A DNA stretch of 30,793 nt from a virus: positions 1 through 30,793 of the IMG/VR virus record IMGVR_UViG_3300025305_000086; one strand, written 5' to 3'. The notes below the pieces were generated by a model. That model did not search any database, was not told the origin of the DNA, and was given only the letters and a program-made list of their open reading frames with translations. Positions 2,164-27,264 of this stretch are shown piece by piece (positions within the stretch are counted from its first letter, which is position 1; the number at the start of each line of letters is the position of its first letter). Position numbers and translations under genes: made by a program.

Positions 2164-4008
2164 ATGGCACGACCCAGGCCTGAAGATATAATCGATAAGG
2201 TAGAAGCACACCGCGATGCCACCAATACGCTGCGTGATCGTATGGATGCAGATCACCAGCTCTATAAACTTACTCCGTTTGATGCGGGTGACGGCTACCA
2301 GAGCTACACGTCTAACGAGCCGCAGACATATGCCGATAAGGTCGTGGCATGGCTTACCGCAGCCGATATGATTGTGCGGATACCGCCCAACGGTAATCCC
2401 CGCAATAACCGTGATATCAATAACGATAAGGAACGGTTTATCATCGGTGCGCTGCGCTCTGCCGATGAAAGACTGACTAAAAGACTCGTACCCGGCCTGA
2501 AAGATCAGCTTGCATGGCACATAACTGTCAGGGGCTGGTATGCGGGTAGGGCTCTTCTTACCAAGAACAGTGATAATAAAACTACCGTAGATATCACGCC
2601 TTGGGATCCAATGCACACTCACTGGGGCGTGGGACCGGATGGTCTTGCATGGGCTTGCTACAGGATCAAGAAAACACTCGACGAGGTAGAGTCACAGTAC
2701 GGTGTTAGGCTCGGAGAGAGCCGTATGGATACCGATGGGATTACGGTATATGACTATTACGATAATGAGTACAACACTGTCGTTATACCCGGCAGGTTTA
2801 TTAAGAAGCGCACACCACACGGCTCCGAGGGACAGGTTCCTGTATTCCTCGGCCCTGTTGGTTCTACACCACTTGTTCAGTCACTGGAGTGGTCGTCTAT
2901 AGAAGATACGCTTGAAGACTACGGAGAGTCAGTATACAAGGCAACAAGAGAACTCTACGACAAGCATAACCTGATGATGTCCGTGATGCTTGAACTTACG
3001 GCAAGGGCAAGGAAACAGGGACTGAAGGTCAGGTCAAGGGACGGTGTGAAAACACTTGAAGAGGATCCATACCAGGAAGGTACGGAGATATCCCTCGGAC
3101 AGGGCGAGGACGTGGAACCGCTCGGCCTGATGGAGATGGCACGGGAGTCCGGTGCATTTATGGGACTCGTGTCGGGAGAGATGCAGAGAGGCTCTATCCC
3201 GCATACGGTTTACGGTGAGATACCGTTCCAGTTATCAGGGTTTGCCATAAACACTCTCAGGCAGGGCGTGGAGTCCGTACTCGTGCCCCGCGTAGGTGCT
3301 ATGCAAAAAGCCTATACCCAGATATCTAATATGCTCTGTGATCAGTACCAGTCAGGCTCATTTGAGGCAATGGAACTCACGGGGCAGGACAATAACAGGA
3401 TGTACTTCTCAGAGACAATTACTCCTGAAAGGATACGAGAAGGCGGTGACCCTGAGATAAAACTCGTTACGAACCTTCCCGAAGACGATATGTCCAGGTA
3501 CGGGATGGCACAGATCGCAAGAGAGGGACAGACACCGCTCCTGCCAGACCTGTGGATACGGGACAACATCCTCGGTATACAGGACTCCGACCAGATCGAG
3601 GATGCAGTCAAGGAACAGATCGGGGAACGTACTCTGCCTGAAGCAGGTATATGGTCACTCTACCAGGCTGCTGTCAAACAGGGCAGGGAAGATCTTGCCC
3701 AGCTATATCTCGGAGAACTCCTGTCGATGTTATTTGCCAAAGCACAGCAGATGGCCCAGACTATGGGAGGGATGGCAGGGCCACCACCAGGAACTCCCTC
3801 CCCTGGGCCGGGAATCGCTCCCCCCGCAGCAGGTGGCCCGCCACCTATGCAGCCACCGGGAGTCATGCCGCCAGCTATGGCAGGAGTACCGCCTCCTATG
3901 CCAACGCCACAGGGTGGGCCGGTAGTTCCACCGGGACAACCAAGACCGGGGGCACTGACTGAAGAAGAGCGATTACGTAGAATAGGACTTGCAGGACCGA
4001 GAGGATAA
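2164..4008 (+). CDS. Portal protein
   Basis: The portal forms the dodecameric ring through which DNA enters and leaves the head and is the docking site for terminase. It is identified by position directly after terL, its length (614), and a portal-like body: an N-terminal helical part, a wing with WDPMHTHWGVGPDGLAWACY, and a helical stem region around residues 250-350. The last roughly 60 residues (about 537-595) are almost only Pro, Gly, Met and Ala (for example GPPPGTPSPGPGIAPPAAGG), a disordered tail uncommon in compact portals. ATG follows the terL stop by one base, with AAGAGG upstream. Confidence 0.88.
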   Translation: MARPRPEDIIDKVEAHRDATNTLRDRMDADHQLYKLTPFDAGDGYQSYTSNEPQTYADKVVAWLTAADMIVRIPPNGNPRNNRDINNDKERFIIGALRSADERLTKRLVPGLKDQLAWHITVRGWYAGRALLTKNSDNKTTVDITPWDPMHTHWGVGPDGLAWACYRIKKTLDEVESQYGVRLGESRMDTDGITVYDYYDNEYNTVVIPGRFIKKRTPHGSEGQVPVFLGPVGSTPLVQSLEWSSIEDTLEDYGESVYKATRELYDKHNLMMSVMLELTARARKQGLKVRSRDGVKTLEEDPYQEGTEISLGQGEDVEPLGLMEMARESGAFMGLVSGEMQRGSIPHTVYGEIPFQLSGFAINTLRQGVESVLVPRVGAMQKAYTQISNMLCDQYQSGSFEAMELTGQDNNRMYFSETITPERIREGGDPEIKLVTNLPEDDMSRYGMAQIAREGQTPLLPDLWIRDNILGIQDSDQIEDAVKEQIGERTLPEAGIWSLYQAAVKQGREDLAQLYLGELLSMLFAKAQQMAQTMGGMAGPPPGTPSPGPGIAPPAAGGPPPMQPPGVMPPAMAGVPPPMPTPQGGPVVPPGQPRPGALTEEERLRRIGLAGPRG

Positions 4009-25744: not shown

Positions 25745-26170
25745 TCATGCCAGTATCTCCTTAATAGGGTCCATGTCATCGGGACAGTACCATAGATACG
25801 CTTCTATTCCGGGTATCTGTTGCAGCTTCTCAAGCCACAGTTCCTGTTCAGGCGTGGGCTTGTTGCCTTTCATCTTGAGTTCTGTAAAGAGGAGTCGAGG
25901 GGGGCGCACAAGTACCAGGTCAGGGAATCCCTTGTCACTGCCCCTGGAGTTCCGTGTGTGATAAATTAGATCCCACCCTGTTAAAGTTGCTTCATCCCGG
26001 ATCATTTCAAGAAACTCTTTCTCGTTCTTCGGCACTATTACCAGCTCTACAGGTTCTTCGATCTCTGCTTCAACAGGATCTGCCTCATGGCACTCACACT
26101 CACACTCTTCGTATTGACAGTGTCTCCACTTGTCCCGGTGTACATTGTATTTGCATATTAGTGAGATCAT
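25745..26170 (-). CDS. VRR-NUC domain nuclease
   Basis: This 141-residue protein has a C-terminal VRR-NUC domain (PD-(D/E)XK superfamily, as in FAN1 and phage stand-alone nucleases that act on branched DNA). Core residues are D84 in GFPDLVLV and E97-x-K99 in FTELKMKG, followed by TPEQELWLEKL and YLWYCPDD. The N-terminal 50 residues are unusual for stand-alone VRR-NUC proteins, with a Cys/His cluster (CKYNVH, HCQYEECECECH) that may bind zinc, then an acidic linker. It overlaps the methyltransferase stop by four bases (ATGA). It may resolve replication or recombination intermediates. Confidence 0.82.
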   Translation of the reverse strand: MISLICKYNVHRDKWRHCQYEECECECHEADPVEAEIEEPVELVIVPKNEKEFLEMIRDEATLTGWDLIYHTRNSRGSDKGFPDLVLVRPPRLLFTELKMKGNKPTPEQELWLEKLQQIPGIEAYLWYCPDDMDPIKEILA

Positions 26171-27249
26171 TCAACAGAATCTCTTGATATCAATTCCCTG
26201 AGCGCATAAGCGGCCTGTGCGGGCACGACGGCGTTGCCGAGCATCATCAACGCAGCCACCCTATCCGAGATTTTCCAAGCATCATCCACGTTACGAACAG
26301 GGGATTCAGTCTCATACATCCCACTCCGCACCGGTGTTCCGTGCTTACAGGTTGCGGGGGCGAGCTCTGGGTAGTGTTCGACGATCCATTCCCAGGCTGG
26401 GTCTCCTGGGCCAGGGGGGAATTCTGGGAGTTCGGGTCTGTCCAATTCCCAGCAATCGCCGAGAGGTTGTTCTGGTGATTCTCTCGGATCAATAGATTTG
26501 ACTTGATCTCTGATGCCTGTGGCGTGGGCCAGTTCGTTGCTACCCCGTCTAGTGTTGCTCCCCACTCCGTTCCGTCCTTGCCCGTCCGTATGAACCGTCC
26601 GTTTTTGACTGTCATGGTATTCTGCACCATACCTTTGTAATCCCTCGTGGCTGGCGTGGGCCAGTTCTCCGCTTGGTTTGGAAGCATCTCCTGAAATCCA
26701 GTGTTCCTGCCCTTGTAGTCCCGTGCCTGTGGCGTTTGCCAGGATGAAGAGCCTCTCGCGCCTGTGGCTTGCGCCGATGTCCGAGGCTTTGAAACAGCCC
26801 CACTCCGCATCGTACCCTGCTTCGGCCAGCTCTCCGAGAATGGTACCAAAGTATGGGTGAGCAACGAGGCCTGGGACGTTTTCCAGGAAGACGTAGCGTG
26901 GTCGTAGTTCGCGTATGATCCTGATGGTATCGGGGAAGAGATTTCTATCGTCTGAGGCACCGGATTGTTTGCCGGCGACCGAAAAGGGCTGGCAGGGGAA
27001 ACCGGAGAGCAAAAAGTCGATGTCCACTTTTCCAGCAAAGAGTTCTGTTGGGAATGTTTTAACATCAGAGTAGATCGGAGCTTCGTCAAGTAGTCCTTCT
27101 GAAGCTCTCTCTGCCAGGATTCTCGCCGCCTTGATTCCCCGTTCAACGTAACAGATCGTTCTAGTCGGGAGAACATCTCGGACTCCGAGGTCAAGTCCAC
27201 CGATTCCTGAGAACAAGCTGATAACGGTATATTCGGTATATAAATCCAC
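26167..27249 (-). CDS. dcm: DNA (cytosine-5) methyltransferase
   Basis: This 360-residue protein has all main C5-methyltransferase motifs: I, SLFSGIGGLDLG (11-22); IV, GFPCQPFS with nucleophile C86; VI, ENVPG (123-127); VIII, RRERLF (163-168); X, LGNAVVP (337-343). The region between VIII and X, with repeated LANAT/ELAHAS/ELAHAT units, replaces a typical target recognition domain. No restriction endonuclease is adjacent, so this is probably a lone phage enzyme protecting DNA from host restriction. The start is GTG 27249, with AAGGAG upstream. An ATG two bases further out opens a different frame that stays open for 334 codons. Confidence 0.92.
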   Translation of the reverse strand: MDLYTEYTVISLFSGIGGLDLGVRDVLPTRTICYVERGIKAARILAERASEGLLDEAPIYSDVKTFPTELFAGKVDIDFLLSGFPCQPFSVAGKQSGASDDRNLFPDTIRIIRELRPRYVFLENVPGLVAHPYFGTILGELAEAGYDAEWGCFKASDIGASHRRERLFILANATGTGLQGQEHWISGDASKPSGELAHASHEGLQRYGAEYHDSQKRTVHTDGQGRNGVGSNTRRGSNELAHATGIRDQVKSIDPRESPEQPLGDCWELDRPELPEFPPGPGDPAWEWIVEHYPELAPATCKHGTPVRSGMYETESPVRNVDDAWKISDRVAALMMLGNAVVPAQAAYALRELISRDSVE

Positions 27250-27251
27250 AT
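26247..27251 (-). CDS. Overlapping 334-codon frame inside the methyltransferase gene
   Basis: This frame is on the same strand as dcm, shifted, from ATG 27251 to a stop at 26247. Its text is not random: YDHATSSWKTSQ (116-127), FSESWPKQGTMRSG (138-151), then WQTPQARDYKG (171-181), WPTPATRDYKG (197-207) and WPTPQAS (241-247), ending LNPLFVTWMM (315-324) and GW. From memory these are hallmarks of a phage protein family often annotated near DNA methylases, with a usual ending of LNPxFVExLMGFPxGWT. The frame may encode a second protein, or the similarity may be an imprint of dcm-like coding. Its AAGGAG is slightly too close to the ATG. Confidence 0.4.
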   Translation of the reverse strand: MWIYIPNIPLSACSQESVDLTSESEMFSRLERSVTLNGESRRRESWQRELQKDYLTKLRSTLMLKHSQQNSLLEKWTSTFCSPVSPASPFRSPANNPVPQTIEISSPIPSGSYANYDHATSSWKTSQASLLTHTLVPFSESWPKQGTMRSGAVSKPRTSAQATGARGSSSWQTPQARDYKGRNTGFQEMLPNQAENWPTPATRDYKGMVQNTMTVKNGRFIRTGKDGTEWGATLDGVATNWPTPQASEIKSNLLIRENHQNNLSAIAGNWTDPNSQNSPLAQETQPGNGSSNTTQSSPPQPVSTEHRCGVGCMRLNPLFVTWMMLGKSRIGWLR

Positions 27252-27264
27252 TACTCCTTCTTTC

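Follow-up and report, generated by a model that had tools for sequence, protein, structure and literature searches.

The small chain of the two-polypeptide C5-cytosine methyltransferase M.EcoHK31I is encoded in another reading frame inside the gene for the large chain. In both M.EcoHK31I (YGGCCR) and M.AquI, motif IX resides in the small chain (PMC3404938). The large chain of M.EcoHK31I contains motifs I–VIII and X as well as the predicted target-recognition region, and M.AquI is split after motif VIII, with motifs IX and X in its small chain (PMC3404938). Overlapping methylase genes have also been described in cluster O mycobacteriophages. The authors of the Corndog study noted coding potential in the overlap of the split pair and asked whether two products assemble or a frameshift takes place, and where the second product starts; the pair was not detected by mass spectrometry (PMC4351075). 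A different phage methylase gene, gp65, likewise contains a hidden frame, but this is a homing-endonuclease insertion and not an enzyme subunit. Well-established cases of large same-strand gene overlap are rare in prokaryotic genomes, and such overlaps are discarded by gene-finding programs.

Here, we analyzed a 30,793-nucleotide stretch of viral DNA (IMG/VR record IMGVR_UViG_3300025305_000086; hereafter the window) whose dcm gene contains a second long reading frame on the same strand. Sequence comparisons make it likely that this dual-coding gene specifies a two-chain C5-cytosine DNA methyltransferase, composed of an alpha chain in the dcm frame and a nested beta chain. The likeness to M.EcoHK31I is one of motif layout: in both, there are two chains, the large one carrying motifs I–VIII and X without IX and the small one carrying IX. 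However, the predicted recognition region of M.EcoHK31I lies in its large chain, whereas the modules of the window's family lie in the nested chain. A plasmid search with one beta protein returned three weak matches and no EcoHK31I relative. The split plan of M.AquI is shared by split pairs of mycobacteriophages and Streptomyces phages, but motif X of M.AquI is in the small chain, whereas the window has motif X in the large chain and beta nested inside alpha. The gp6/gp7 pairs of Corndog and Dylan show the same +1 relation, an LPTP module, and NPxFxEWMMG in the second ORF; they differ in overlapping only partially and in having motif X on the second ORF, and they were published without a family-wide test. 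The published cluster O puzzle is a split form of the arrangement proposed for the window, which offers a testable answer to the printed question of two products or a frameshift and of where the second product starts. The protein families phrog_1008 and phrog_16143 contain these beta chains, but their labels are silent on nesting in, or need by, another methyltransferase frame. Our literature search, with most subscription journals outside its scope, found no family-wide or genome-scale published account.

The gene pair in the window

The dcm gene (26167–27249, minus strand) begins with GTG and encodes the 360-residue alpha chain. The second frame (26247–27251, minus strand), +1 relative to dcm, begins with ATG and stays open for 334 codons, as the initial annotation had pointed out. 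This length is not a by-product of the dcm protein and its codons: in 600 synonymous shuffles that kept both, the longest +1-open run averaged 146 codons, and none matched the observed 333. Five close relatives (L009, L010, L011, L013, and L005) gave a result like that of the window, and nothing comparable was found in 14 other window genes (p = 0.01 at most). A somewhat long +1-open run of 154 codons (p = 0.01) in the gene at 2164–4008 (plus strand) has no apparent cause and may be due to chance, given that 15 genes were tested.

The alpha chain contains motifs I, IV (PCQ), VI (ENV), and VIII (RxR) in one frame, which identifies it as a C5-cytosine DNA methyltransferase. We take SLFSGIGGLDLG (27184–27219, minus strand) to be motif I from general knowledge of these enzymes. 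Motif IV, with the catalytic PCQ, is GFPCQPFSVAGK (26968–27003, minus strand), and motif VIII is GASHRRERLFILA (26737–26775, minus strand); both were placed by sequence and by alignment with M.HhaI. Between them lies motif VI, YVFLENVP (26872–26895, minus strand). Motif X, RVAALMMLGNAVVPAQA (26212–26262, minus strand), was assigned by sequence and by a match to the phrog_1008 profile. We found motifs I–VIII and X in frame and no recognizable motif IX.

The beta frame reads SSWKTSQ (residues 121–127) opposite motif VI and FSESWPKQGTMRSG (residues 138–151) opposite the GELAEAGYDAEWG stretch, also written TILGELAEAGYDAEWG (the GYDAEW stretch). Three WQTP/WPTP modules follow at residues 170, 196, and 240, which we regard as putative target-recognition modules: SWQTPQARDYKG (26709–26744, minus strand), NWPTPATRDYKG (26631–26666, minus strand; the alpha frame there reads ELAHASHEG), and NWPTPQASE (26508–26534, minus strand; NELAHATG in the alpha frame). 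The frame closes with the motif-IX-like end MRLNPLFVTWMMLGKSRIGW (26256–26315, minus strand), with LNPLFVTWMM at residues 315–324; a related in-frame stretch, LNPRFVEWMMGLPDGW, aligns with motif IX of M.HhaI. The repeated DNA unit noticed earlier as ELAHAT/WPTPQA is translated as ELAHA(S/T) in dcm and as WPTP in the second frame.

All of the motifs quoted in the initial annotation occur in the second-frame translation, but they differ in weight as evidence. Conserved dcm motifs lie across from SSWKTSQ and FSESWPKQGTMRSG (quoted as FSESWPxxGTMRSG), so the conservation of these two says nothing on its own. In contrast, the putative target-recognition region and the conserved motif IX, both of which are missing from the dcm frame, are carried by the WPTP repeats and LNPxFVxWMM.

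The neighbors of dcm include an AAA ATPase gene and VRR-NUC and PD-(D/E)XK nuclease-like genes. Because no adjacent gene was recognized as a restriction enzyme, we predict that the methylase is likely an orphan phage enzyme, probably protecting DNA from host restriction. The VRR-NUC nuclease gene lies directly downstream of dcm (25745–26170, minus strand), and a VRR-NUC gene is also found near the methylase of Streptococcus phage pST (L022).

Stop codons across the family and the start of beta

Relatives of beta were found by DNA patterns, as a broad beta alignment offered too few conserved stretches. A search of viral and bacterial genome collections with a pattern for the motif IX stretch gave 239 sites. 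At approximately 210 of these, the dcm motifs are read in a different frame, always the same one; at only about nine are they confined to the frame of the motif IX stretch. Because the loci, reduced to below 70–75% identity, are still related, the expectations from shuffling are not exact probabilities. With this caveat, shuffling predicts 168.6 (sd 10.6) +1 stops between motifs VIII and IX for the 128 nonredundant loci, which contain none. The third frame, with 806 stops against 751, is near expectation over the same stretch. As this set had been selected on the nested motif, a second was picked on the dcm-frame protein, by a pattern for the alpha-frame residues around motif X alone with all codons allowed. 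All 84 nonredundant loci obtained in this way are +1-open from motif VIII to motif X.

A per-column map of 130 loci delimits the protected region. Stops in +1 are at expectation in motifs I–III, thin out from about column 60, and are nearly absent from column 86–88, just past motif IV, to motif VIII (1 versus ~296 expected). In each of the 13 loci where a +1 stop occurs late in the region, an ATG is retained ahead of column 88, mostly near columns 85–87 (8.2 expected, p = 7e-4). A Shine-Dalgarno score of at least 4 was obtained for 88 of 196 candidate start ATGs and for 22 of 230 downstream +1 ATGs (p = 5e-17). As judged from these patterns, beta is started separately from alpha in the family. 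A conserved ATG in the shadow of the GYDAEW stretch was considered as the start and rejected, since stops vanish approximately 45 codons earlier.

The family pattern does not settle the position of the beta start in the window. Within the clade of the window, all seven members tested have a +1 frame free of stops over motifs I–III, and a dual start, ATGTG or TTGTG, follows a Shine-Dalgarno sequence in four clade members and is kept in L009, L010, and L011. In the window, AAGGAG (27254–27259, minus strand) precedes ATGTG, in which the candidate beta start (ATG 27251) overlaps the alpha start (GTG 27249). On these grounds, the window beta probably starts at ATG 27251 and shares the alpha Shine-Dalgarno sequence (single-locus probabilities 0.1 to 0.4), and both overlapping starts may be used. 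The alternative is the ATG at codon 26 (27174–27176, minus strand), which has GGAG six bases upstream and is kept in L009.

These patterns bear on a different mode of expression, in which ribosomes would shift or hop out of the dcm frame into +1 and make one fused product instead of two separately started chains. This option was left open for Corndog gp6/gp7 (PMC4351075), and a start ahead of motif IV would leave the same stop pattern as a shift at that place. However, a frameshift after motif VIII cannot explain the openness, because +1 protection begins at motif IV, where such a shift does not need it, and a shift before motif IV would lose motifs IV–VIII. The joint enrichment of ATG and Shine-Dalgarno sequences marks starts, and with motif X in the dcm frame a single shift cannot yield the full enzyme. 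We therefore consider a fused product unlikely.

Division of motifs between the two proposed chains

The alpha chain matches PF00145 (E = 2.8e-43) only to position 251 of the 324 in the profile and aligns with M.HhaI only through motif VIII. The second frame matches phrog_1008, labeled 'DNA methyltransferase' (E = 3.8e-23), in agreement with the phage family near DNA methylases to which the initial annotation had pointed. Residues 326–355 of dcm, the motif X stretch (LGNAVVP), match positions 291–319 of phrog_1008, at the end of the profile. Because beta and the dcm end both match this profile, its members follow the second frame over their middle part and go on into motif X. Among the beta chains that are nested with motif IX in their own frame (class A), 58 of 58 match phrog_1008, and matches to this profile occur in 9 of 200 genomes of one bacterial family.

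LNPxFVEWLMGxPxGW is present in beta, the small chain, in most of the approximately 130 diverged homologous loci; the window's version is deviant (WMMLGKSRIGW). L115 has this stretch in the dcm frame, and there it can be aligned with M.HhaI motif IX, weakly and with a low score. As the window's dcm aligns only through motif VIII, we assign motif IX to the nested chain: by these alignments, alpha lacks it and beta contains it. In the window, motif IX and the target-recognition region are accordingly not in the chain that holds the PF00145 motifs; motif IX is in the +1 frame.

Mapping the family relative to dcm revealed nested, split and overlapping, and in-frame arrangements. ShiLan and SchottB have an LNPxFVEWMMGxPxGW-like stretch in the dcm frame. 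The first ORF of Keziacharles14, Vash, and Dylan ends after motif VIII, and an overlapping second ORF in +1 carries an LPTP module, the LNPxFVEWMMGxPxGW-like stretch, and motif X; each of the two ORFs bears a methylase annotation. A nested second ORF, with motif X left to the dcm frame, is found in S-H1, Rialto, Gryphonian, and the window. For Gryphonian, the annotators listed the nested ORF even though no program called it.

A translated beta might instead be something other than a methyltransferase chain, such as an anti-restriction or regulatory protein overprinted on dcm. Profile and structure searches offer some room for this: the window's second frame has no match in Pfam or NCBIfam, a Pfam search with 58 beta proteins gave no match, and a search of the PDB returned no relative. 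With pLDDT values of 64 and 58, the AlphaFold models of beta are too poor to establish its fold. However, motif IX and the LPTP/WPTP modules are in frame with the methyltransferase motifs in the fused ShiLan enzyme, motif IX is also in that frame in L115 and L141, and both elements adjoin motif X in the split beta chains. Alpha, moreover, is without motif IX. Taken together, these placements make a function outside the methyltransferase improbable.

In the two-chain methyltransferase that we favor, the dcm frame would supply the SAM-binding and catalytic motifs I–VIII, then a linker that is a shadow of the beta recognition region, and then motif X. Beta would be translated in +1 from its own ribosome-binding site, with a start at or before motif IV; its N-terminal part would be a shadow of alpha motifs IV–VIII, followed by the WPTPxAxD repeats and motif IX. 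The position of the WPTP modules and the fused enzymes suggest that these modules recognize the target. Each chain would supply what the other lacks, and we infer that the two assemble to rebuild one methyltransferase. Such an arrangement would explain many phage methylases that are annotated as single genes without motif IX, and it predicts that the annotated dcm frame cloned alone gives an inactive enzyme. Naturally split methyltransferases are also possible tools for targeted methylation.

Conserved frames and arrangements across phages

We also performed the reciprocal test, in which the codons of beta were shuffled. Alpha-frame stops between motifs VIII and IX number 4 against 404 expected. 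Since stop depletion is seen in each frame when the other's codons are shuffled, selection keeps both of them open. Across 57 disjoint pairs of loci, the substitution pattern switches between frames along the gene. In motifs I–III, the dcm third position changes fastest (0.383 versus 0.093 for the first), as it does after motif X (0.378 versus 0.135). Between motifs VIII and IX, the fastest position is the alpha first position, which is the beta third (0.309 versus 0.177). The conserved frame of this region is that of beta, and the putative recognition region is not in the large chain, where that of M.EcoHK31I is predicted. The constraint per frame, which the initial annotation had proposed to compare among relatives, follows the +1 frame here, and +1 stops do not accumulate freely. 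By these measures, both frames are protein-coding across the family. In the window's clade, differences in shared modules fall at beta positions 1/2/3 as 5/5/20 (L009/L010) and 6/2/13 (L009/L011), and the flanks of the modules, including the stretch around motif IX, evolve as the dcm frame.

A set of enzymes with motif IX in the dcm frame was intended as a canonical control and was rejected as such: 47 of the 57 carry a post-VIII DILE...YFLS segment in +1 and constitute a second nested class (class B). Only about eight of the set are plain single-frame enzymes. The class B nested ORF has DILETGDVPQRYFLS at its end; in ordinary single-chain enzymes (e.g., L389 and L431), this segment comes after motif VIII. 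With this segment in +1, stops over motifs IV–VIII number 5 versus 102 expected, and single-frame enzymes have about the expected number; the roughly eight methyltransferases with the segment outside the +1 frame have that frame closed. Class B betas, including the phage MM1 'C5 methyltransferase beta subunit', match phrog_16143.

The initial annotation had asked whether the two genes are truly overprinted or the whole family is a translated shadow of dcm genes. Regional +1 stop depletion, reciprocal shuffles, the switch in substitutions, and the split forms support the overprinted pair. That the +1 frame is never translated and looks conserved only through the dcm protein and its codon choice is very improbable: although SSWKTSQ and FSESWPKQGTMRSG do lie opposite the conserved motif VI and GYDAEW stretch and a similar frame lies under the annotated dcm of S-H1, codon shuffles that preserve the dcm protein predict 169 stops between motifs VIII and IX where 0 are seen, the effect ends upstream of motif IV and is absent from the third frame, substitutions between VIII and IX follow +1, the reciprocal test agrees, and true single-frame enzymes have a closed +1 frame.

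The overprinted arrangement occurs well over 100 times among diverged phages and prophages from many phyla, and in it two frames of one enzyme constrain each other over 200–300 codons. We lean toward the view that two-frame coding is a general and old plan of phage C5 methyltransferases, with the specificity chain in the +1 frame of the catalytic chain. At least three arrangements would exist: class A, with modules and motif IX in beta; class B, with DILE...YFLS in beta and IX and X in alpha; and a third class, in actinophages, with modules in beta and motifs IX and X in alpha. Modules would be gained, lost, and swapped in beta while alpha stays readable.

The class B arrangement is common in viral contigs. 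L017 (1992–3149), L398, L462, L449, and others have a +1 ORF over motifs IV–VIII that ends in CSLSDILE...YFLS and matches phrog_16143, whereas the dcm frame retains motifs IX and X. In actinophage loci of the third class (L021, 1995–3065; L115, L141, L142, L217, and L250), LPTP modules are in +1 and motif IX is in the dcm frame. In L005 (2713–3740), L006 (2368–3395), and L007 (2803–3269), motifs I–III are in the frame of the recognition chain, and motifs IV–X are in the other frame, with an internal ATG. These three loci represent a natural swap of the chain that bears the N-terminus, which a two-chain enzyme could tolerate. Finally, L009, L010, L011, and the window (26500–26745) contain one to four WPTP modules, with whole modules shared or missing, suggesting gain, loss, and exchange of modules among close relatives.
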